This document shows positions 8,453-24,894 of a stretch of 34,873 bases of DNA, in pieces. How positions within the stretch are numbered: the first letter of the stretch is position 1; each line of letters opens with the position of its first letter. Position numbers and translations under genes: made by a program. Under the pieces are notes generated by a model. That model made no database searches. It was given only the letters and a program-made list of their open reading frames with translations, and had not been told where the DNA came from. Source of the DNA: a virus; IMG/VR virus record IMGVR_UViG_3300010403_000042, positions 1 through 34,873 of that record; one strand, written 5' to 3'.

Positions 8453-9334
8453 TCAGTATGCTTGGGCTTCTTCTTTTGTCAAGAAAAAATGAATTCCCCC
8501 GGAGCATTCAATCAACGGGTTCGGGTCAAACTTGTGTGGGCGGACGGTCTTACCCACCCGGTATTTAAAACTGTGGTCGTGTCGTGAAATGCCCCCGCCT
8601 TCGAGCACCACAGCAAATTCGGCCCGGCACTTTCGGCCAATGCAACCCCCTACCCGAGCAGCTTCAACCGGAATGCGCAACTGACACAGTTTCCCGTCTT
8701 CGAGTTTTTTCCAAACCAACAATTCCCCGGCAGGAACAATTGTTCGTTGGGCCACAAAAAGGTCCTGCTCACCTTTGGTCCACTCCACACCGCGCAAGTC
8801 CGCGCTGCGCAAGTCCGCGCTGCGCAAGTCCGCGCTGCGCAAGTCCGCACCGCTCAAGTTCGCGCTGCGCAAGTCCGCACCCCTCAAGTTCGCACCGCTC
8901 AAGTCCGCGCTGCACAAGTTCTCGCTGCGCAAGTCCGCACCCGTCAAGTCCGCACCGCTCAAGTTCGCGCTGCTCAAGTTCGCGCTGCTCAAGTCCGCGC
9001 TGCGCAAGTCCGCGCTGCGCAAGTCCGCGCTGCGCAAGTCCGCGCTGCGCAAGTCCGCACCGCTCAAGTTCGCGCTGCTCAAGTTCGCGCTGCTCAAGTT
9101 CGCGCTGCGCAAGTCCGCGCTGCGCAAGTCCGCACCGCTCAAGTTCGCGCTGCGCAAGTTCGCGCTGCGCAAGTCCGCGCTGCGCAAGTCCGCGCTGCTC
9201 AAGTCCGCGCTGCTCAAGTCCGCACCGCTCAAGTCCGCGCTGCGCAAGTCCGCGCAGCGCAAGTCCGCACCGCTCAAGTTCGCGCTGCCTGTGTCGAACA
9301 ACTCTTTTCCCGTAAATCTGTTAAAAATTTTCAT
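8453..9334 (-). CDS. Pentapeptide-repeat protein with conserved phage C-terminal domain
   Basis: The 293-residue product has three parts: a short N-terminus (MKIFNRFTGKELFDTG); 33 consecutive pentapeptides of the A(D/N)LxS type (residues 17-181), which should form a right-handed quadrilateral beta helix; and a C-terminal domain of about 110 residues with LVWKKL, GRKCRAEFAVVLE and IECSGGIHFFLTKEEA. That last domain resembles the one found after pentapeptide repeats in other phage proteins (DUF5758-like, from memory). Pentapeptide proteins can mimic DNA, as in gyrase protection, but many have no known role. The repeat is unusually uniform at both DNA and protein level. Confidence 0.9.
   Translation of the reverse strand: MKIFNRFTGKELFDTGSANLSGADLRCADLRSADLSGADLSSADLSSADLRSADLRSANLRSANLSGADLRSADLRSANLSSANLSSANLSGADLRSADLRSADLRSADLRSADLSSANLSSANLSGADLTGADLRSENLCSADLSGANLRGADLRSANLSGADLRSADLRSADLRSADLRGVEWTKGEQDLFVAQRTIVPAGELLVWKKLEDGKLCQLRIPVEAARVGGCIGRKCRAEFAVVLEGGGISRHDHSFKYRVGKTVRPHKFDPNPLIECSGGIHFFLTKEEAQAY
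8792..9286. repeat. 15-bp tandem minisatellite coding for pentapeptides
   Basis: Thirty-three head-to-tail copies of a 15-bp unit (plus-strand form near AAGTCCGCGCTGCGC) occupy 495 bp within one gene. Because 15 is divisible by 3, copy gain or loss keeps the frame. Runs of identical units (for example around 9001-9055) suggest recent expansion. The regularity also opens long false reading frames on the opposite strand. Confidence 0.95.
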
Positions 9335-15705: not shown

Positions 15706-15882
15706 ATGCCTGATGATTCTGCAAAACAAGTTGACGATGCGTTGTTCCGCCGGATGCCTGCTGATGTCCGGGCGCTGAACCGCAAGGCGCGTGGCGAATC
15801 TCGCCGTGCTGAGCGATACGCTTGGGCGACTGCCCACCCCAACAATCCCCGAGTCGCTGGCAAGAAGCTGAACAAGCCATGA
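15706..15882 (+). CDS. 58-residue basic protein, first rightward gene
   Basis: The frame encodes MPDDSAKQVDDALFRRMPAD and a highly basic C-terminus (ARGESRRAERYAWATAHPNN). Its TGA overlaps the ATG of the putative small terminase (ATGA). A short basic protein ahead of a terminase gene could bind DNA. No domain is recognised. Confidence 0.6.
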   Translation: MPDDSAKQVDDALFRRMPADVRALNRKARGESRRAERYAWATAHPNNPRVAGKKLNKP

Positions 15883-16532
15883 TACCCATCGAGACCATCC
15901 CAATTGACCGTGAGCAGGCGTTCCTGCTGTTCGCCACATTCACAGGCGACATCGCCAGGACGGCGCACGCACTCGACGTGCCTTCGGCTGCCGTGCTGCG
16001 CATGGCTGAAGAAGAGGGTTGGACAAACAAACTTGGTCCCATCCTCGCGCTGAAGAAATCCACAAAGCCCGGAGACGTGGAGCGCGGAATCAATCGAGCG
16101 CTCAACTTCGTGCAGGCCCATCGTATGCGGTTGTTCATTCAGCGTGTGATTACCCGGCTCACTGCGCTAAATGAAACTGAGTTTGAAGATTACCTTTTCG
16201 TGGGCACCACCGACAAGATTGGCAACACCACAAAGAAACTCACGACGCGTGCGCTGGCTGACCTTGCGTCGGCGTTGGAGAAGGCACAAGCCCTAACATA
16301 CATGGCGCTCAACGATACCGCGCAAGACCGCGCGAAGCGTAAAGAGGAAAGCGGCGACAGCGAAGTGGCAGCCGGAGATTTGCACGCGCAGATTAGTGCT
16401 GGCCTCGCTGCGGTTCGCGCGAGCGCTACGCCACGGGCACAGTTATTCGACGCTCAGCTTGCCCAGGCTGAAGAGTTGACGAAGCAATCGCGGAAGGGTC
16501 CCGAGCACCCGAACGATGACGACAACCACTGA
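15879..16532 (+). CDS. Putative terminase small subunit
   Basis: The 217-residue protein has a helix-turn-helix-like N-terminus, FTGDIARTAHALDVPSAAVL (about 21-40). A helical middle follows that could oligomerise, and the C-terminal third is acidic and Lys-rich. This architecture fits phage small terminases, which recognise the packaging site. It is about 9 kb from the large terminase, whereas the two are usually adjacent, so it could also be a regulator. The start at 15879 is supported by the ATGA overlap; the longer start at 15822 lies in the preceding gene. Confidence 0.55.
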   Translation: MIPIETIPIDREQAFLLFATFTGDIARTAHALDVPSAAVLRMAEEEGWTNKLGPILALKKSTKPGDVERGINRALNFVQAHRMRLFIQRVITRLTALNETEFEDYLFVGTTDKIGNTTKKLTTRALADLASALEKAQALTYMALNDTAQDRAKRKEESGDSEVAAGDLHAQISAGLAAVRASATPRAQLFDAQLAQAEELTKQSRKGPEHPNDDDNH

Positions 16533-16534
16533 GT

Positions 16535-16621
16535 ATGGCTGAAGCGCTGATTGATTGTTGGTTGTTTTTCTTGTTCACCGTCGCCGGGTTTGTGCTCGGC
16601 TACACCTGCCCATTTCAATAG
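16535..16621 (+). CDS. 28-residue membrane micropeptide
   Basis: The frame encodes MAEALIDCWLFFLFTVAGFV then LGYTCPFQ: one hydrophobic helix with two cysteines. It starts 2 bp after the preceding stop. The coupled position and membrane character suggest it is real; the function is unknown. Confidence 0.45.
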   Translation: MAEALIDCWLFFLFTVAGFVLGYTCPFQ

Positions 16622-16702
16622 CTGTGCCTCACTTGAACGGGAGCATATCCCAGTCTTCTGTATGAGCGAATTGACGCGAGGCAATACAGTAAAGCACAGC
16701 TA
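16619..16702 (+). ncRNA. Candidate structured RNA (three-way junction)
   Basis: A perfect 9-bp outer stem joins TAGCTGTGC (16,619-16,627) to GCACAGCTA (16,694-16,702). Inside lie GGGA-gcata-TCCC (16,639-16,651) and CTGTAT...ATACAG (16,658-16,689), giving two inner hairpins. It has no reading frame of its own and does not fit a tRNA, lacking a T-loop motif. It overlaps only the micropeptide stop codon. The fold was found by eye; no energy was computed. Confidence 0.4.
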
Positions 16703-16716
16703 GGTGATTCCCCTAT
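16701..16716. promoter_or_regulatory. Operator-like palindrome, copy 1
   Basis: TAGGTGATTCCCCTAT here matches TAGGGGATTCCCCTAT at 23,575-23,590 in 15 of 16 positions. The second copy is a perfect inverted repeat (TAGGGGA-T-TCCCCTA). This copy is 69 bp upstream of the ATG at 16785. Two near-identical dyads in front of separate transcription units suggest one DNA-binding protein. Confidence 0.5.
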
Positions 16717-16784
16717 CTATCGGACAGTAAGTCCGCACGCAGTTTGTAGTTGCGCGTTTAAACGCCGCGTGGCATATTGGCGGC

Positions 16785-16958
16785 ATGAGTAAATCATACG
16801 ACGAACAATTGAAAGAACATCAGGCCCGCGAGAAAGCCACGGGTATCTTCACTAACTTTGCGCCGAAGGGCCGCAGAGGGTTCAGCGCCCAAAAGTCGCG
16901 CTCAGTCAAGGCCAGCACACGCGCAGGCGTTCCGATGTCGGTATGGTTGAAAGGATAA
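16785..16958 (+). CDS. 57-residue basic hypothetical protein
   Basis: The product begins MSKSYDEQLKEHQAREKATG and ends MSVWLKG. It is basic in the middle (GRRGFSAQKSRSVKAST). It starts 22 bp after a GTTTAAAC octamer and 69 bp after the operator-like dyad. No domain is recognised. Confidence 0.55.
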   Translation: MSKSYDEQLKEHQAREKATGIFTNFAPKGRRGFSAQKSRSVKASTRAGVPMSVWLKG

Positions 16959-16963
16959 ACGTG

Positions 16964-17154
16964 ATGACTGACCAAACTATCGAAGTGCTGAAGGCCGCGA
17001 CAGCCGACATTCGAGCAGCGTGGACGTGGTCTGCACCGATGGCGAGCGCCAGCAGTGGCGCACCAATTGCATTCTGAACCGCTCCGTTTACAACAAGCTG
17101 TTCAACCAGTGGCCCACGCGCCGAATTGAAACTGGGCAGACACAAACATCGTAG
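16964..17154 (+). pseudogene. Possibly frameshifted small gene
   Basis: The ATG at 16964 opens a frame (MTDQTIEVLKAATADIRAA) that stops at 17077. Another frame, entered near 17,010-17,025, reads VDVVCTDGERQQWRTNCILN and continues to TAG at 17154 with normal-looking composition. The two halves look like one protein of about 60 residues broken by an indel near 17,015, although programmed frameshifting or two overlapping genes are possible. Confidence 0.4.
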
Positions 17155-17192
17155 GGCTGCCCCATAGCGAGTAGCTGGATACTGTAACCCCG

Positions 17193-17221
17193 ACGCCCGG
17201 AACTACTCACCGGGCGTTTTT
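17193..17221 (+). terminator. Rho-independent terminator
   Basis: ACGCCCGG (17,193-17,200), a 9-nt loop, CCGGGCGT (17,210-17,217) and an immediate run of T to 17,221 make a textbook intrinsic terminator. It ends the small-gene cluster that starts at 15,706. Confidence 0.9.
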
Positions 17222-17222
17222 C

Positions 17223-17463
17223 ATTTCGACCCACAACCTGTAGTGTCTGGACCTCCTAGTGCCACTAGACCGGCACACCCCAACAGGTTGTGTAAGCGAA
17301 ATCCACTCGACCACCCCCAACCACTGCGTGATTTTCACGCATTATGCGTGAGCCTCACGCACCCCTCTGGCGTTAACGTTAACGCTCTACAGTCTATCGA
17401 CGGAATCGCTGTAGCCCAGTAAATCGCTGGGTCGGACCGGTGCTCCGCGACCCGCGCGGGGTC
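17223..17463. other. Gene-free palindrome cluster (possible origin, att or control site)
   Basis: Between the terminator and the HNH gene there is no convincing gene for about 430 bp. In order, the first 240 bp contain: an outer dyad CACAACCTGT/ACAGGTTGTG (17,232-17,241 and 17,283-17,292); an inner dyad CTAGTG-C-CACTAG (17,256-17,268) on the same centre, 17,262; two copies of GCGTGA-N3-TCACGC starting 20 bp apart (17,326 and 17,346); the 16-bp palindrome GCGTTAACGTTAACGC (17,370-17,385); and stem-loops at 17,387-17,414, 17,415-17,431 and 17,449-17,463. The remaining stretch to 17,652 holds nothing clear. Candidate roles are replication origin, recombinase site or multi-operator. Confidence 0.7.
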
Positions 17464-17652
17464 TAGTCTTCGGTGTAGCGTTCCGACCACCCTGTGCAAA
17501 ATTCGCCAAAAACCCGATGGGGGGGATGCACGCGGGGCCTCCGCTTACTGAAAGTATCTGGTTTTAATACTCAGACATCGAGAATCTCCTTTAAACATTG
17601 TGTTATTTTTAGGTTTCTTTTTATGGGGGTTGCGCACACTCTATATCAGAGT

Positions 17653-18171
17653 ATGAGAGAAATAAAAATGCGAAGTGGCGGGAGGGTTGCTTTGGTTGAT
17701 GACGCCGATTATGCCCGGCTGTCTTCTTTTGTTTGGTTTCCTTGGGGCCGGTCTGGGGATAAAAATCAAGAGCCTCGACCGGCTAGGAATCTGCGACACT
17801 CGGATGGCCGGTGGGAAAATAGATTGATGCACCACGACATTTTGCCCTATCCGTTTTTTGGTCTGACTGTTGACCATGCAGATGGCAATCCTTGGAACAA
17901 CCAACGAAAAAATCTGAGATATGCGACAGGTTCACAGCAAGCAACAAACAGTAAAAAGAGGCGCATGAATGGGAAATCCTCGTCTCGTTTCAAGGGGGTG
18001 AGTTTTGATTCGGCTTATGAGAAGTGGAGGGCTGAAATTTATTTTCAAAAGAAGCGTTATTTTGTGGGGTTCTTCGCCGAAGAAGAATCTGCGGCAAGAG
18101 CGTGGGACATTAAAGCCAAAGAGCTTCACGGAGAATTCGCTCGATTGAATTTTCCGCCGCCTTTGTTGTAA
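17653..18171 (+). CDS. Free-standing HNH homing endonuclease with AP2 domain
   Basis: The 172-residue protein has an HNH core, LTVDHADGNPWNNQRKNLRY (71-90; D74, H75, N79, N82, N83, N87). An AP2 DNA-binding domain follows (about 112-168): RFKGVSFDSAYEKWRAEIYF, then A.AWD and LNFP. This HNH-AP2 pairing is typical of phage mobile endonucleases. The gene is AT-richer than its neighbours and lies just after the palindrome cluster, fitting a recent insertion. The start at 17653 is chosen because the family begins with MREI..RSG..ALVDD-like sequence; the frame is open further upstream. Confidence 0.85.
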   Translation: MREIKMRSGGRVALVDDADYARLSSFVWFPWGRSGDKNQEPRPARNLRHSDGRWENRLMHHDILPYPFFGLTVDHADGNPWNNQRKNLRYATGSQQATNSKKRRMNGKSSSRFKGVSFDSAYEKWRAEIYFQKKRYFVGFFAEEESAARAWDIKAKELHGEFARLNFPPPLL

Positions 18172-18214
18172 AAAATGTTTGCCCCGTGGGATAAAAACGA
18201 GCACATTATAGCAG

Positions 18215-18487
18215 ATGGACACGCTGCTAATTGTCACTGTGGTTTTGACCTTGGGGTGTGTCTGGAAAATTCAAAAACAACAGGAGAAAATACTTATGGG
18301 AGCTTTAAAGAACTTGCAGGATGCCGTCACCGCGCTGAACACTAACTCCGCTGCGATTATCGTCGCGCTGAACGCCGCCAAGACCGGGGTCCCCGAGACC
18401 GAAGTCCAGGCCCAGGCCGATGCCGTCAATGTCGTGAATAGCAATCTCACGACTGCGCTGACGCCCACGTCTCCGATTCAGTCGTAA
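18215..18487 (+). CDS. Small membrane-anchored hypothetical protein
   Basis: The 90-residue product has an N-terminal hydrophobic segment (TLLIVTVVLTLGCVW), then a helical Ala/Asn-rich domain (NLQDAVTALNTNSAAIIVAL) and a Thr/Pro tail. An alternative ATG at 18296 has an AGGAG sequence 9 bp upstream and would drop the membrane segment, so two forms may exist. Similar small Ala-rich proteins occur near phage tail and lysis genes; no clear function is assigned. Confidence 0.6.
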   Translation: MDTLLIVTVVLTLGCVWKIQKQQEKILMGALKNLQDAVTALNTNSAAIIVALNAAKTGVPETEVQAQADAVNVVNSNLTTALTPTSPIQS

Positions 18488-18552
18488 AAGTTGTCCAGTC
18501 TTGGTCTCGACCACCAAGCGTAGCGGGCCACGATACGGTCCACCAATTTTTT

Positions 18553-18771
18553 ATGGTGCTATCACTCAAACCAAGGGCCGGGACTTGTAAGTGCCGGGAT
18601 GCGTGTAACCAGTCGCGCTACTCTGACGGCGACCAAGAAAACAAACGGTGGTTCTGTTCCGAGTTGGTGTGCGCGGCGTTCGCCGCCGGGGGCGTGAGTC
18701 TTTTCAATGCGCGTCACTGGGAAATCAGTCCCGGCACGCTGTCCATTTGTCCTCTACTCCATCAAGTATGA
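18553..18771 (+). CDS. Possible C-terminal fragment of a cysteine hydrolase
   Basis: The 72-residue frame ends with RWFCSELVCAAFAAGGVSLF, then ISPGTLSICPLLHQV. This matches my memory of the C-terminal half of permuted papain-like (YiiX/NlpC-P60-like) hydrolases, where a Cys-Ser-Glu-Leu helix is followed by SPGDL..SPLL. The first half does not look like the family N-terminus, so it may be truncated or frameshifted. Its TGA overlaps the protease ATG, suggesting it is still translated. Confidence 0.4.
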   Translation: MVLSLKPRAGTCKCRDACNQSRYSDGDQENKRWFCSELVCAAFAAGGVSLFNARHWEISPGTLSICPLLHQV

Positions 18772-19571
18772 AAAAATATTTCTTCATTTTCTCCGCTATC
18801 CTCGTCGGAGTTGCCTTTGCGTGGCGCGAACAAACCCACTGGTTGGGCCGGTTTGAGCGCGCACAGAAGTCCACGGTGCTGCTCGAAAGTTCCAAGTCCT
18901 TTGGCTCCGGAGTAATCATCCGGAAGACCAACCCGAACGACTGCCCCCGGCTATTCGTCTGGACCGCCGCGCATGTTGTCCGCGCCGATAACACTGTCAA
19001 GGTGAGTCAGGTAATCCGGCTCGACGGACGCAAAGCAGGCACCATCAACTTTTCTGCGCACGTCCTCGTCCGGGATAGCTCCCTCGACTTGGCGCTGCTC
19101 TGGCTCGAAGCCCCCGCTAACTTTTTCTCGGCATCCGCGTTCGACGGCACCAAGATACTCCCTGTCGGCACTGGGGTTTTCCATTGTGGTAACTTCTCAG
19201 GTCCCAAGTTGGAAGGCAGCTTTAGTTCCGGCGTCGTGTCCCAAGTCGGTGTTAGTTCCCCGGAATTTCCGTGGCAAATTATCGACCAGGCCAGCGCGGT
19301 AGTTCAACATGGGTGCTCCGGCGGTGGGTTATTTTCCGACCGCTCCGGCAAGCTTGTCGGAATTGTTACCGGGCTGTTCGACAGCGGGGTCACGTTTTTC
19401 GTCCCAGCCCGAGCCGTGAATACGTTCTGCGTTGTCCACAATGTCCAGTGGGCCTTCTCGGGCGACGCCTGTCCGAGCGATGGCAAGTTGCTGTTGTTGC
19501 AAGAGTCCGCCAAGCTATCGCCCCAAGCCAAGGCCCCGGATGCTTTTCTTCAATTGCTGCTTGCGCCATAA
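18768..19571 (+). CDS. Exported trypsin-like serine protease
   Basis: The 267-residue protein starts with a signal peptide or membrane anchor (MKKYFFIFSAILVGVAFAW). A chymotrypsin-fold triad follows: H69 in VWTAAHVV, D107 in SSLDLALLW, and S184 in GCSGGGLFS. The domain is close to the size of minimal trypsin-like proteases. The start at 18768 overlaps the previous stop as ATGA; a start at 18648 is discarded because it would read through that gene. Exported proteases are uncommon in phages. Possible targets are host surface proteins or phage protein maturation. Confidence 0.85.
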   Translation: MKKYFFIFSAILVGVAFAWREQTHWLGRFERAQKSTVLLESSKSFGSGVIIRKTNPNDCPRLFVWTAAHVVRADNTVKVSQVIRLDGRKAGTINFSAHVLVRDSSLDLALLWLEAPANFFSASAFDGTKILPVGTGVFHCGNFSGPKLEGSFSSGVVSQVGVSSPEFPWQIIDQASAVVQHGCSGGGLFSDRSGKLVGIVTGLFDSGVTFFVPARAVNTFCVVHNVQWAFSGDACPSDGKLLLLQESAKLSPQAKAPDAFLQLLLAP

Positions 19572-23590: not shown

Positions 23591-23648
23591 ATTGCGCACC
23601 GTGAAAGTCACGCTTGACTGGGGCGCGGGTTCGTTCTATAGTGGTCGT

Positions 23649-24350
23649 ATGAATGTAGTAAGTTATCTCCGGGTGAGTAGCAAGGGTCAAGTCGAGGGCG
23701 ACGGGTTCGACCGGCAGGAGCGCGCCATTGAAGACTTTTGCAGAATTCAAGGGTTGAAGAATCACCGTGAGTTTCAGGAACGTGGGGTCTCAGGGGCGGT
23801 TGAGGGTCTTGACCGACCTGCTTTTTCTGAGCTAATTGAATTTATTGAACAGTGCCGGGAGTGTCTTATAGTAGGCATTGTGGTCGAACGCATGGACCGA
23901 CTCGCGCGCGACCTGATGGTGTCCGAAGTGCTGCTCGCGGAGTGCCGAAAGCGCAACATCCAGGTGTTCAGCGCCGACCAGGGCGCATTAGTCAACATGG
24001 CCGAGAACGGCGGCGACCCGACGCGGGTGCTAATCCGCCAAATCATGGGAGCGCTGGCGCAGTGGGAGAAAACGATGGTGGTGCATAAACTCCGCGCGGC
24101 GCGGGAACGCATCAAGGCGTCCGGCGGGCGGTGCGAGGGCACGAAGCCTTATGGCCATTGTGCCGCAGAAGCCCCCCTGCTGTCCTACATTATCGAGCAG
24201 CACAACAAGGGTGCAAATTTTTCTAACATCGCGCGGTTGCTAAACGCGATGGACGCGCGCACGCGCTCGGGCCGACCTTTCAAACCGCAGAACGTGCGGA
24301 TGATAATCACAAACCACAACAAGAACAACAACAGCAAGAACAAACAATGA
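23649..24350 (+). CDS. Serine recombinase (resolvase/invertase family)
   Basis: The 233-residue protein has the N-terminal catalytic core: YLRVSSKGQ with the presumed nucleophile at S10, then Q.RAIEDFC, later RMDRLARDL and ALAQWEKTM. A short C-terminal DNA-binding part contains a helix-turn-helix-like SNIARLLNAMDA followed by SGRPFKPQNVR. The size fits small resolvases or invertases, not large integrases. It could mediate inversion of tail genes, resolution or integration. The start at 23649 is chosen because the catalytic core begins there. Confidence 0.9.
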   Translation: MNVVSYLRVSSKGQVEGDGFDRQERAIEDFCRIQGLKNHREFQERGVSGAVEGLDRPAFSELIEFIEQCRECLIVGIVVERMDRLARDLMVSEVLLAECRKRNIQVFSADQGALVNMAENGGDPTRVLIRQIMGALAQWEKTMVVHKLRAARERIKASGGRCEGTKPYGHCAAEAPLLSYIIEQHNKGANFSNIARLLNAMDARTRSGRPFKPQNVRMIITNHNKNNNSKNKQ

Positions 24351-24605: not shown

Positions 24606-24785
24606 ACTCTGTCTTCACAGAGTAGCGACGGAAGTCACCGTTATGACATACATGAAAGAGAGGGATTTATGACAAATTAGTGTTTAAACATTGTTCATCA
24701 TTTTTATCACTCTGGGCTGGGGAACACCCCGGCTCCTTGAGGCCGAGGCTCACATGGACTGTTTGTTTCCGGCCTCTTTTGTTTT
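24606..24785. other. Structured spacer between the two tRNA genes
   Basis: This stretch has no gene. It contains a perfect hairpin ACTCTGT-CTTC-ACAGAGT (24,606-24,623), a GTTTAAAC octamer (24,682-24,689), a stem-loop GCTGGGG-AACA-CCCCGGC (24,716-24,733), and a longer pairing GAGGCC (24,739-24,744) with GGCCTC (24,771-24,776) followed by TTTTGTTTT, which may terminate transcription. The rest is AT-rich and may hold a promoter; none is clear. Confidence 0.55.
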
Positions 24786-24820
24786 CCCGAACAGTCCCCA
24801 GCGTGCGCACTGTTTGGTAG

Positions 24821-24894
24821 CGCGGGGTAGAGAAACGGTATCTCGTTTGGCTCATAACCAAAAATTGCGGGTTCAATTCCCGTCTCCGCTACCA
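24821..24894 (+). tRNA. tRNA-Met (CAT), initiator-like
   Basis: A 74-nt cloverleaf with encoded CCA. The acceptor 5' strand is CGCGGGG and the first base does not pair with position 72 (C1 opposite T), a bacterial initiator trait. The D-stem has A11-T24 (another initiator trait), the loop has GG, the anticodon loop is CTCATAA (CAT), and the T-loop is TTCAATT. The anticodon stem is TTTGG/CCAAA, so it has two of the three G-C pairs typical of initiators. It may be an initiator-type tRNA carried by the phage, or an elongator with initiator-like ends. Confidence 0.85.

Follow-up and report, generated by a model that had tools for sequence, protein, structure and literature searches.

Exchangeable palindromic modules, putative binding sites of dimeric proteins, around one of a conserved pair of inverted sites downstream of a small-terminase-like gene in uncultured phages

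In SPP1, TerS (gp1) binds the pac region, made up of pacL, pacC and pacR, and the cut lies between TerS sites (PMC4856287, PMC6316719). The locus described here, found in about 30 uncultured phages of ~70-75 kb, resembles pac in several respects: pac adjoins the small terminase gene and our locus follows a putative TerS-like gene; two sites, here A and B, flank the region; pac overlaps gene 1, and site A falls within the end of terS in some relatives; and one flank is AT-rich. Unlike pacL and pacR, which are without sequence identity, A and B share one sequence, in opposite orientations. We know of no SPP1 counterpart to the variable palindromes around A. These palindromes are reminiscent of lambda-type operators, in that the 17-bp palindromes of one module (M1) are paired 20-23 bp apart and specificity varies between relatives; they differ in that no repressor gene tracks the palindromes, several classes are possible in one phage and each genome has a single locus. 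Being dyads in a phage that encodes a small serine recombinase, they also recall res and hix. Small serine recombinases have crossover sites of 26-28 bp; the dyads reported here measure 61 bp (outer) and 13 bp (inner), are not conserved with the recombinase and show no inversion.

The window, that is, the whole stretch of 34,873 nucleotides analysed here, is a virus record and, since its relatives measure 68-75 kb, is judged to be a fragment. Among the isolated phages of INPHARED, we found no similar DNA and no similar TerL or portal protein. A minus-strand gene at 8453-9334 of the window encodes a long pentapeptide-repeat protein. The dyad site lies after a plus-strand gene, past a terminator and ahead of an HNH/AP2 gene, and its surroundings are as follows.

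15879-16532, plus strand: TerS-like gene, the steady upstream neighbour of the locus in about 30 phages (homologues, AlphaFold model, Foldseek)
17193-17223, plus strand: intrinsic terminator, an inverted repeat ACGCCCGG-N9-CCGGGCGT followed by TTTTTC
17223-17228, strand not applicable: ATTTCG, the left outer arm of the initial annotation; relatives retain site A without ATTTCG
17232-17241, strand not applicable: left arm of the outer dyad, CACAACCTGT, with the module core CAACCTG
17256-17268, strand not applicable: inner dyad CTAGTG-C-CACTAG, with the module core TAGTG-C-CACTA at 17257-17267
17283-17292, strand not applicable: right arm of the outer dyad, ACAGGTTGTG, with the module core CAGGTTG
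17293-17301, plus strand: site A, TAAGCGAAA, directional and conserved in the loci of relatives; it holds most of the right outer arm of the initial annotation
17520-17584, plus strand: site B element, made up of a G run, CTCCGCTTACTG (the inverted copy of A), an AT-rich stretch and GACATCGAG

The profile of the protein encoded at 15879-16532 identified 47 homologous viral loci in IMG/VR. The protein itself had no Pfam, PHROG or PDB sequence match, an absence that does not exclude a small terminase. Its AlphaFold model (34 sequences, mean pLDDT 80, pTM 0.50) displayed a helix-turn-helix (HTH) followed by a long helix, and the best viral Foldseek matches were HTH proteins and Small Terminase entries (E 0.003-0.02, prob 0.8-0.99, low TM-scores; E 0.006-0.02 for the entries named Small Terminase, also with low TM-scores), whereas fold searches of the PDB returned no clear relative. 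From these weak structural matches we infer that the product is small-terminase-like and likely functions in DNA packaging.

The letters and coordinates given for the two dyads in the initial annotation were all correct in the window sequence: both dyads are centred on 17262, with 41 bp between the outer arms. The terminator upstream was confirmed, and our search found no gene running through the dyad site, in agreement with the gene-free setting described. A concentric pair (outer arm of at least 10, inner arm of at least 6, one centre) occurred once in 34,873 bases and in none of 40 dinucleotide shuffles. A 10-bp dyad alone, in contrast, is ordinary (three in the window with spacers of up to 60, versus 2.0 in shuffles); the exact 10-bp dyad with N35-47 had no match anywhere in IMG/VR. 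When the whole window was scanned, short-spacer palindromes peaked in 450-bp windows covering 17050-17750, with 4 observed and 0.23 expected. The outermost pair, ATTTCG and CGAAAT, had been misread as a third set of arms: CGAAAT is the end of site A plus one base, and its left partner is not kept in relatives. Because CGAAAT belongs to the conserved site A, which is present as [AG]AGCGAA on the plus strand in 23 of 29 related loci (1.7 in shuffles) and on the minus strand in none, its match with ATTTCG is probably a chance one.

Site A takes the form [TAC]AAGCGAAA or GAGCGAA across the relatives, on the plus strand only, and is missing from six of the 29 loci. Site B follows 200-320 bp past site A (about 250 bp) as its inverted copy, and in relatives it consists of a G run, then CGCTTAG or CGCTC, then an AT-rich stretch that is often TCGAGAAATAAAAAATTGACATCGAG. 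The two sites change together: AAGCG was found with CGCTT in 12 loci and GAGCG with CGCTC in 7, with a single mixed case (19 matched of the 20 loci in which both sites were read; Fisher p 1e-4), although this count is confounded by ancestry, which alone could produce the covariation. Across about 25 phages, no other non-coding element of the region is as well conserved as the site B element at 17520-17584.

The relatives did not keep all three arm pairs with free spacers, as the initial annotation had envisaged for one composite site, nor did the arms vary merely at random; each of the two dyads recurs in one distant relative only. The outer core recurs in L084 as CAACCTG-37-CAGGTTG, directly ahead of site A and without the inner dyad. 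The inner 11-mer TAGTGCCACTA recurs 13 bp ahead of the TAAGCGAA site in L053/L155, the sole occurrence of TAGTG-C-CACTA among ten related full genomes, and L053 is without the outer dyad. A search of all IMG/VR for the outer core beside site A returned two matches (the L084 locus and unrelated coding DNA) and one for the inner core before site A returned 14, in which the only family member was L155 (L053's own contig); both patterns were framed after L084 and L053 had been spotted, so that these searches give a background rate and are not blind tests. Because each dyad recurs alone, in different relatives, just ahead of site A, we conclude that the outer and inner dyads are independent modules and that their common centre is a peculiarity of the window that is not conserved. 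We also considered chance as the explanation, in which hairpin-rich DNA would have produced the shared centre and both dyads with no function attached to them. Such an account would fit the 10-bp dyads expected about twice per window and L049, the closest relative having the locus, which carries quite different dyads and neither of those in the window; with no concentric pair in the shuffles and with both dyads found separately ahead of site A in other family members, we regard it as distinctly unlikely.

Palindromes are abundant at the locus in general. Dyads with arms of at least 7 numbered 111 in the 29 loci, against 38 expected, and 182 12-mers were common to different loci, against 0-10 in shuffles, some of them from closer relatives or pairs. 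The recurring set comprises TGCGTGA-N3-TCACGCA, TGNGYCA-N3-TGRCNCA, TTGGGTG-N4-CACCCAA, GTTAACGTTAAC and TTTCTGTC-NN-GACAGAAA. The recurring palindromes M1-M5 were confined to the locus in each of the ten full genomes, and the locus was the top palindrome window of the genome in the window and in 4 of the 10 full relatives. The tandem TGCGTGA form was present in eight IMG/VR stretches, every one from this ~70-75 kb phage family, and one phage, L080/G023, carries three palindrome classes. Two of these modules are present in the window.

17325-17361, strand not applicable: module M1, two 17-bp palindromes TGCGTGA-N3-TCACGCA, 20 bp from start to start (IMG/VR scan)
17371-17386, strand not applicable: module M4, palindrome GCGTTAACGTTAACGC, with GTTAACGTTAAC at 17372-17383 (12-mers shared with five other loci)

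The M1 pair and GCGTTAACGTTAACGC (17325-17386) are the strongest recurring modules of the locus. Two records of ~72-74 kb (L040/L041 and L043/L044) are self-closing, through overlaps of some 110-140 bp that lie within the palindrome locus, and their sequence differs at the overlap edge.

The palindromes recur with exact arms and variable centres among phages whose core proteins are merely 35-45% identical; for this reason, sites of the dimer-binding type are the best reading of the locus. Exact arms, free centres, tandem pairing and a coordinated change of half sites (below) are the imprint of dimeric DNA-binding proteins and argue for an operator-type arrangement. We therefore consider it probable, on the sequence comparisons, that the two dyads of the window are independent palindromic modules and putative binding sites for dimeric proteins, located in conserved cis-acting DNA that follows the TerS-like gene. 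This retains the proposal of dimer-type sites in gene-free control DNA, whereas a single concentric site of the recombinase type was not supported.

As RNA, the dyads could instead form one long stem-loop in a transcript, serving as a 3' stabiliser, a terminator or a regulatory RNA. The plus strand of 17223-17302 indeed folds as one rod that includes all arms and extra pairs (-29.3 kcal/mol, z -4.45); the spacers, taken to be asymmetric and free, are not free in this fold, as GTGTCTGG pairs with CCGG(C)ACAC. In addition, one or two hairpins immediately precede site A in several clade-1 relatives (z -2.4 to -4.6). However, folding z values across relatives were similar on both strands (means -1.46 and -1.53), as DNA palindromes give, and the recurrent modules preserve exact arm letters and not pairing alone. 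No T run follows 17292 on the plus strand, as an intrinsic terminator formed by the dyad stem would need, and a good terminator already lies upstream; the 80-nt dyad site is also outside the 15 most structured 80-nt windows of the window. Rfam and tRNA searches gave no match at the dyad site. Because folding is strand-symmetric and the arm letters are conserved, we favour a DNA-level reading and consider the RNA rod unlikely. A strong hairpin DNA at 24701-24790, between the recombinase gene and tRNA-Met (24821-24894), ranks second among the structured 80-nt windows.

The locus could also be a replication origin, with the palindromes as initiator sites and the G-run/AT-rich B element as the unwinding region. 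The leftward arm of replication genes and the rightward structural arm part at this position, an AT-rich stretch adjoins B and the palindromes are clustered, all of which would suit an origin. Against this, no initiator gene following the palindromes was found, GC skew shows no clear switch at the locus, the constant neighbour is TerS and the palindromes differ among near-identical phages. We thus rate an origin as a possibility, but a rather small one.

Comparison of close relatives revealed how freely the palindromes are exchanged. Just past the TerS-like gene, the palindromes of the near-identical phages L083 and L087-L093 fall into three distinct sets that occupy the same positions. Two TGCGTGA-N3-TCACGCA palindromes are found in L083 and L088, and L087, L089 and L090 carry TGNGYCA-type half sites (TGTGCCA, TGGGTCA, TGCGCCA and TGTGTCA) at the same positions and without a change in length; each of the four half sites in the second group has C where the first group has G at position 6. 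In its conserved part, the TerS-like protein shows no difference between L088 and L087/L089/L090. Likewise, palindromes differ between L027 and G030, despite 99.65% identity over 12 kb, and between L031 and G031, despite 99.8% identity over a 2.7-kb stretch bearing the recombinase. As the palindrome pairs swap while both proteins stay nearly unchanged, these comparisons speak against the TerS-like protein or the recombinase reading the exchanged palindromes. Readers encoded by phage genes beyond the stretches compared are possible. Among protein families that could plausibly bind DNA, none tracked TGCGTGA (M1) in the ten full genomes; the single family limited to TGCGTGA phages was missing from two of them, and HTH_3 matches were weak and present in 4 of 24 records.

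These swaps also bear on the idea that the dyads are the inversion or resolution site of the phage's small serine recombinase, the gene for which lies further downstream.

23592-24350, plus strand: small serine recombinase (PF00239, 6.5e-25)

As the recombinase has been conserved in 23 of the 24 family records, it would be expected to have a conserved site somewhere; A and B, moreover, are inverted copies. However, the dyads differ between all records while the enzyme is conserved, and the 99.8% identical stretch that bears it accompanies different palindromes. Each dyad recurs without the other, neither site A nor site B is itself a dyad, and an inverted A-B segment was seen in none of the 29 loci. 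The recombinase-site proposal of the initial annotation is therefore not supported, and we regard it as highly improbable. A 28-bp sequence, CGTAGCGGGCCACGATACGGTCCACCAA, is identical in the window (18519-18546) and in L010 (5624-5651), at different places in phages that are otherwise ~70% similar; as a candidate recombinase site it was rejected, because none of the ten full genomes contains it even when up to 6 mismatches are allowed.

In the dimer-site reading, dimeric proteins would bind the exchangeable palindromes around A and thereby tune events at the locus. Because the swaps follow neither TerS, the recombinase nor any tested phage protein family, the host or other elements may provide these binders. 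One form of this idea is that the locus is a docking array for proteins that the phages do not encode, such as host segregation or nutrient regulators, which would make packaging or late expression depend on the state of the host; the sites would then be exchanged as cis modules without their readers. It is hinted at by L065, which holds GTTCCACGTGGAAC, the 14-bp letters of chromosomal parS (PMC4368675), by L066, which matches the Streptomyces iron box TTAGGTTAGGCTCACCTAA (PMC7174319) at 15 of its 19 letters, by the swaps with unchanged phage proteins and by the want of a tracking phage gene. The parS and iron-box letters are single cases and a hint only, in a scan that compared about 110 palindromes with some 26 consensus sites: likeness to host regulator boxes was seen in L065 and L066 alone, the window's dyads fit no consensus tried, and ArgR-like letters, again in L065/L066 only, are a match expected by chance. 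A ParB gene gave one sub-threshold match in 24 records, and a literature search found none of the exact palindrome strings as known motifs. We offer the docking array as a speculative and minor possibility; if true, phage timing would be wired straight to host regulators without phage-encoded sensors. In L062, AAAAGTTAGGCTC and GGCTCACCTAACTTTT lie ~80 bp apart in the stretch that runs from the TerS-like gene to some 35 bp beyond A, with GGCTC at both inner ends, a layout that looks as if an L066-like box had been split by an insertion.

Two kinds of event could be tuned by dimeric proteins at these palindromes. TerS might start DNA packaging at A/B, which would then be a pac-like site. More contig breaks than expected fell in the 2 kb that follow TerS (5 of 23 near-complete contigs, p 4e-4, the rest being spread over the map), an excess that headful packaging would give but that assembly trouble at hairpins or variable DNA would produce likewise, and fragments of <67 kb were without a clear excess. 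A cos site, which contig ends near B had initially suggested, was not supported: these ends fall at different places and, over 47 contigs, ends are similarly frequent just before TerS, so that we claim no fixed terminus. Alternatively, the palindromes might govern transcription of the rightward arm, which begins beyond B. A promoter scan detected no sigma-70 site at 16000-19000 of the window, and TTGACA is present beside B in some relatives. Separately, GCGTTTAAAC occurs several times per genome (window 16754-16765 and 34244; also G003, G011 and G012) and may be a phage promoter element.

A fixed frame with palindromic sites that are traded even between near-identical phages would constitute a fast-evolving control point beside a packaging gene. 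The same phage background with two site pairs would, in turn, be a natural experiment for finding the proteins that bind them.
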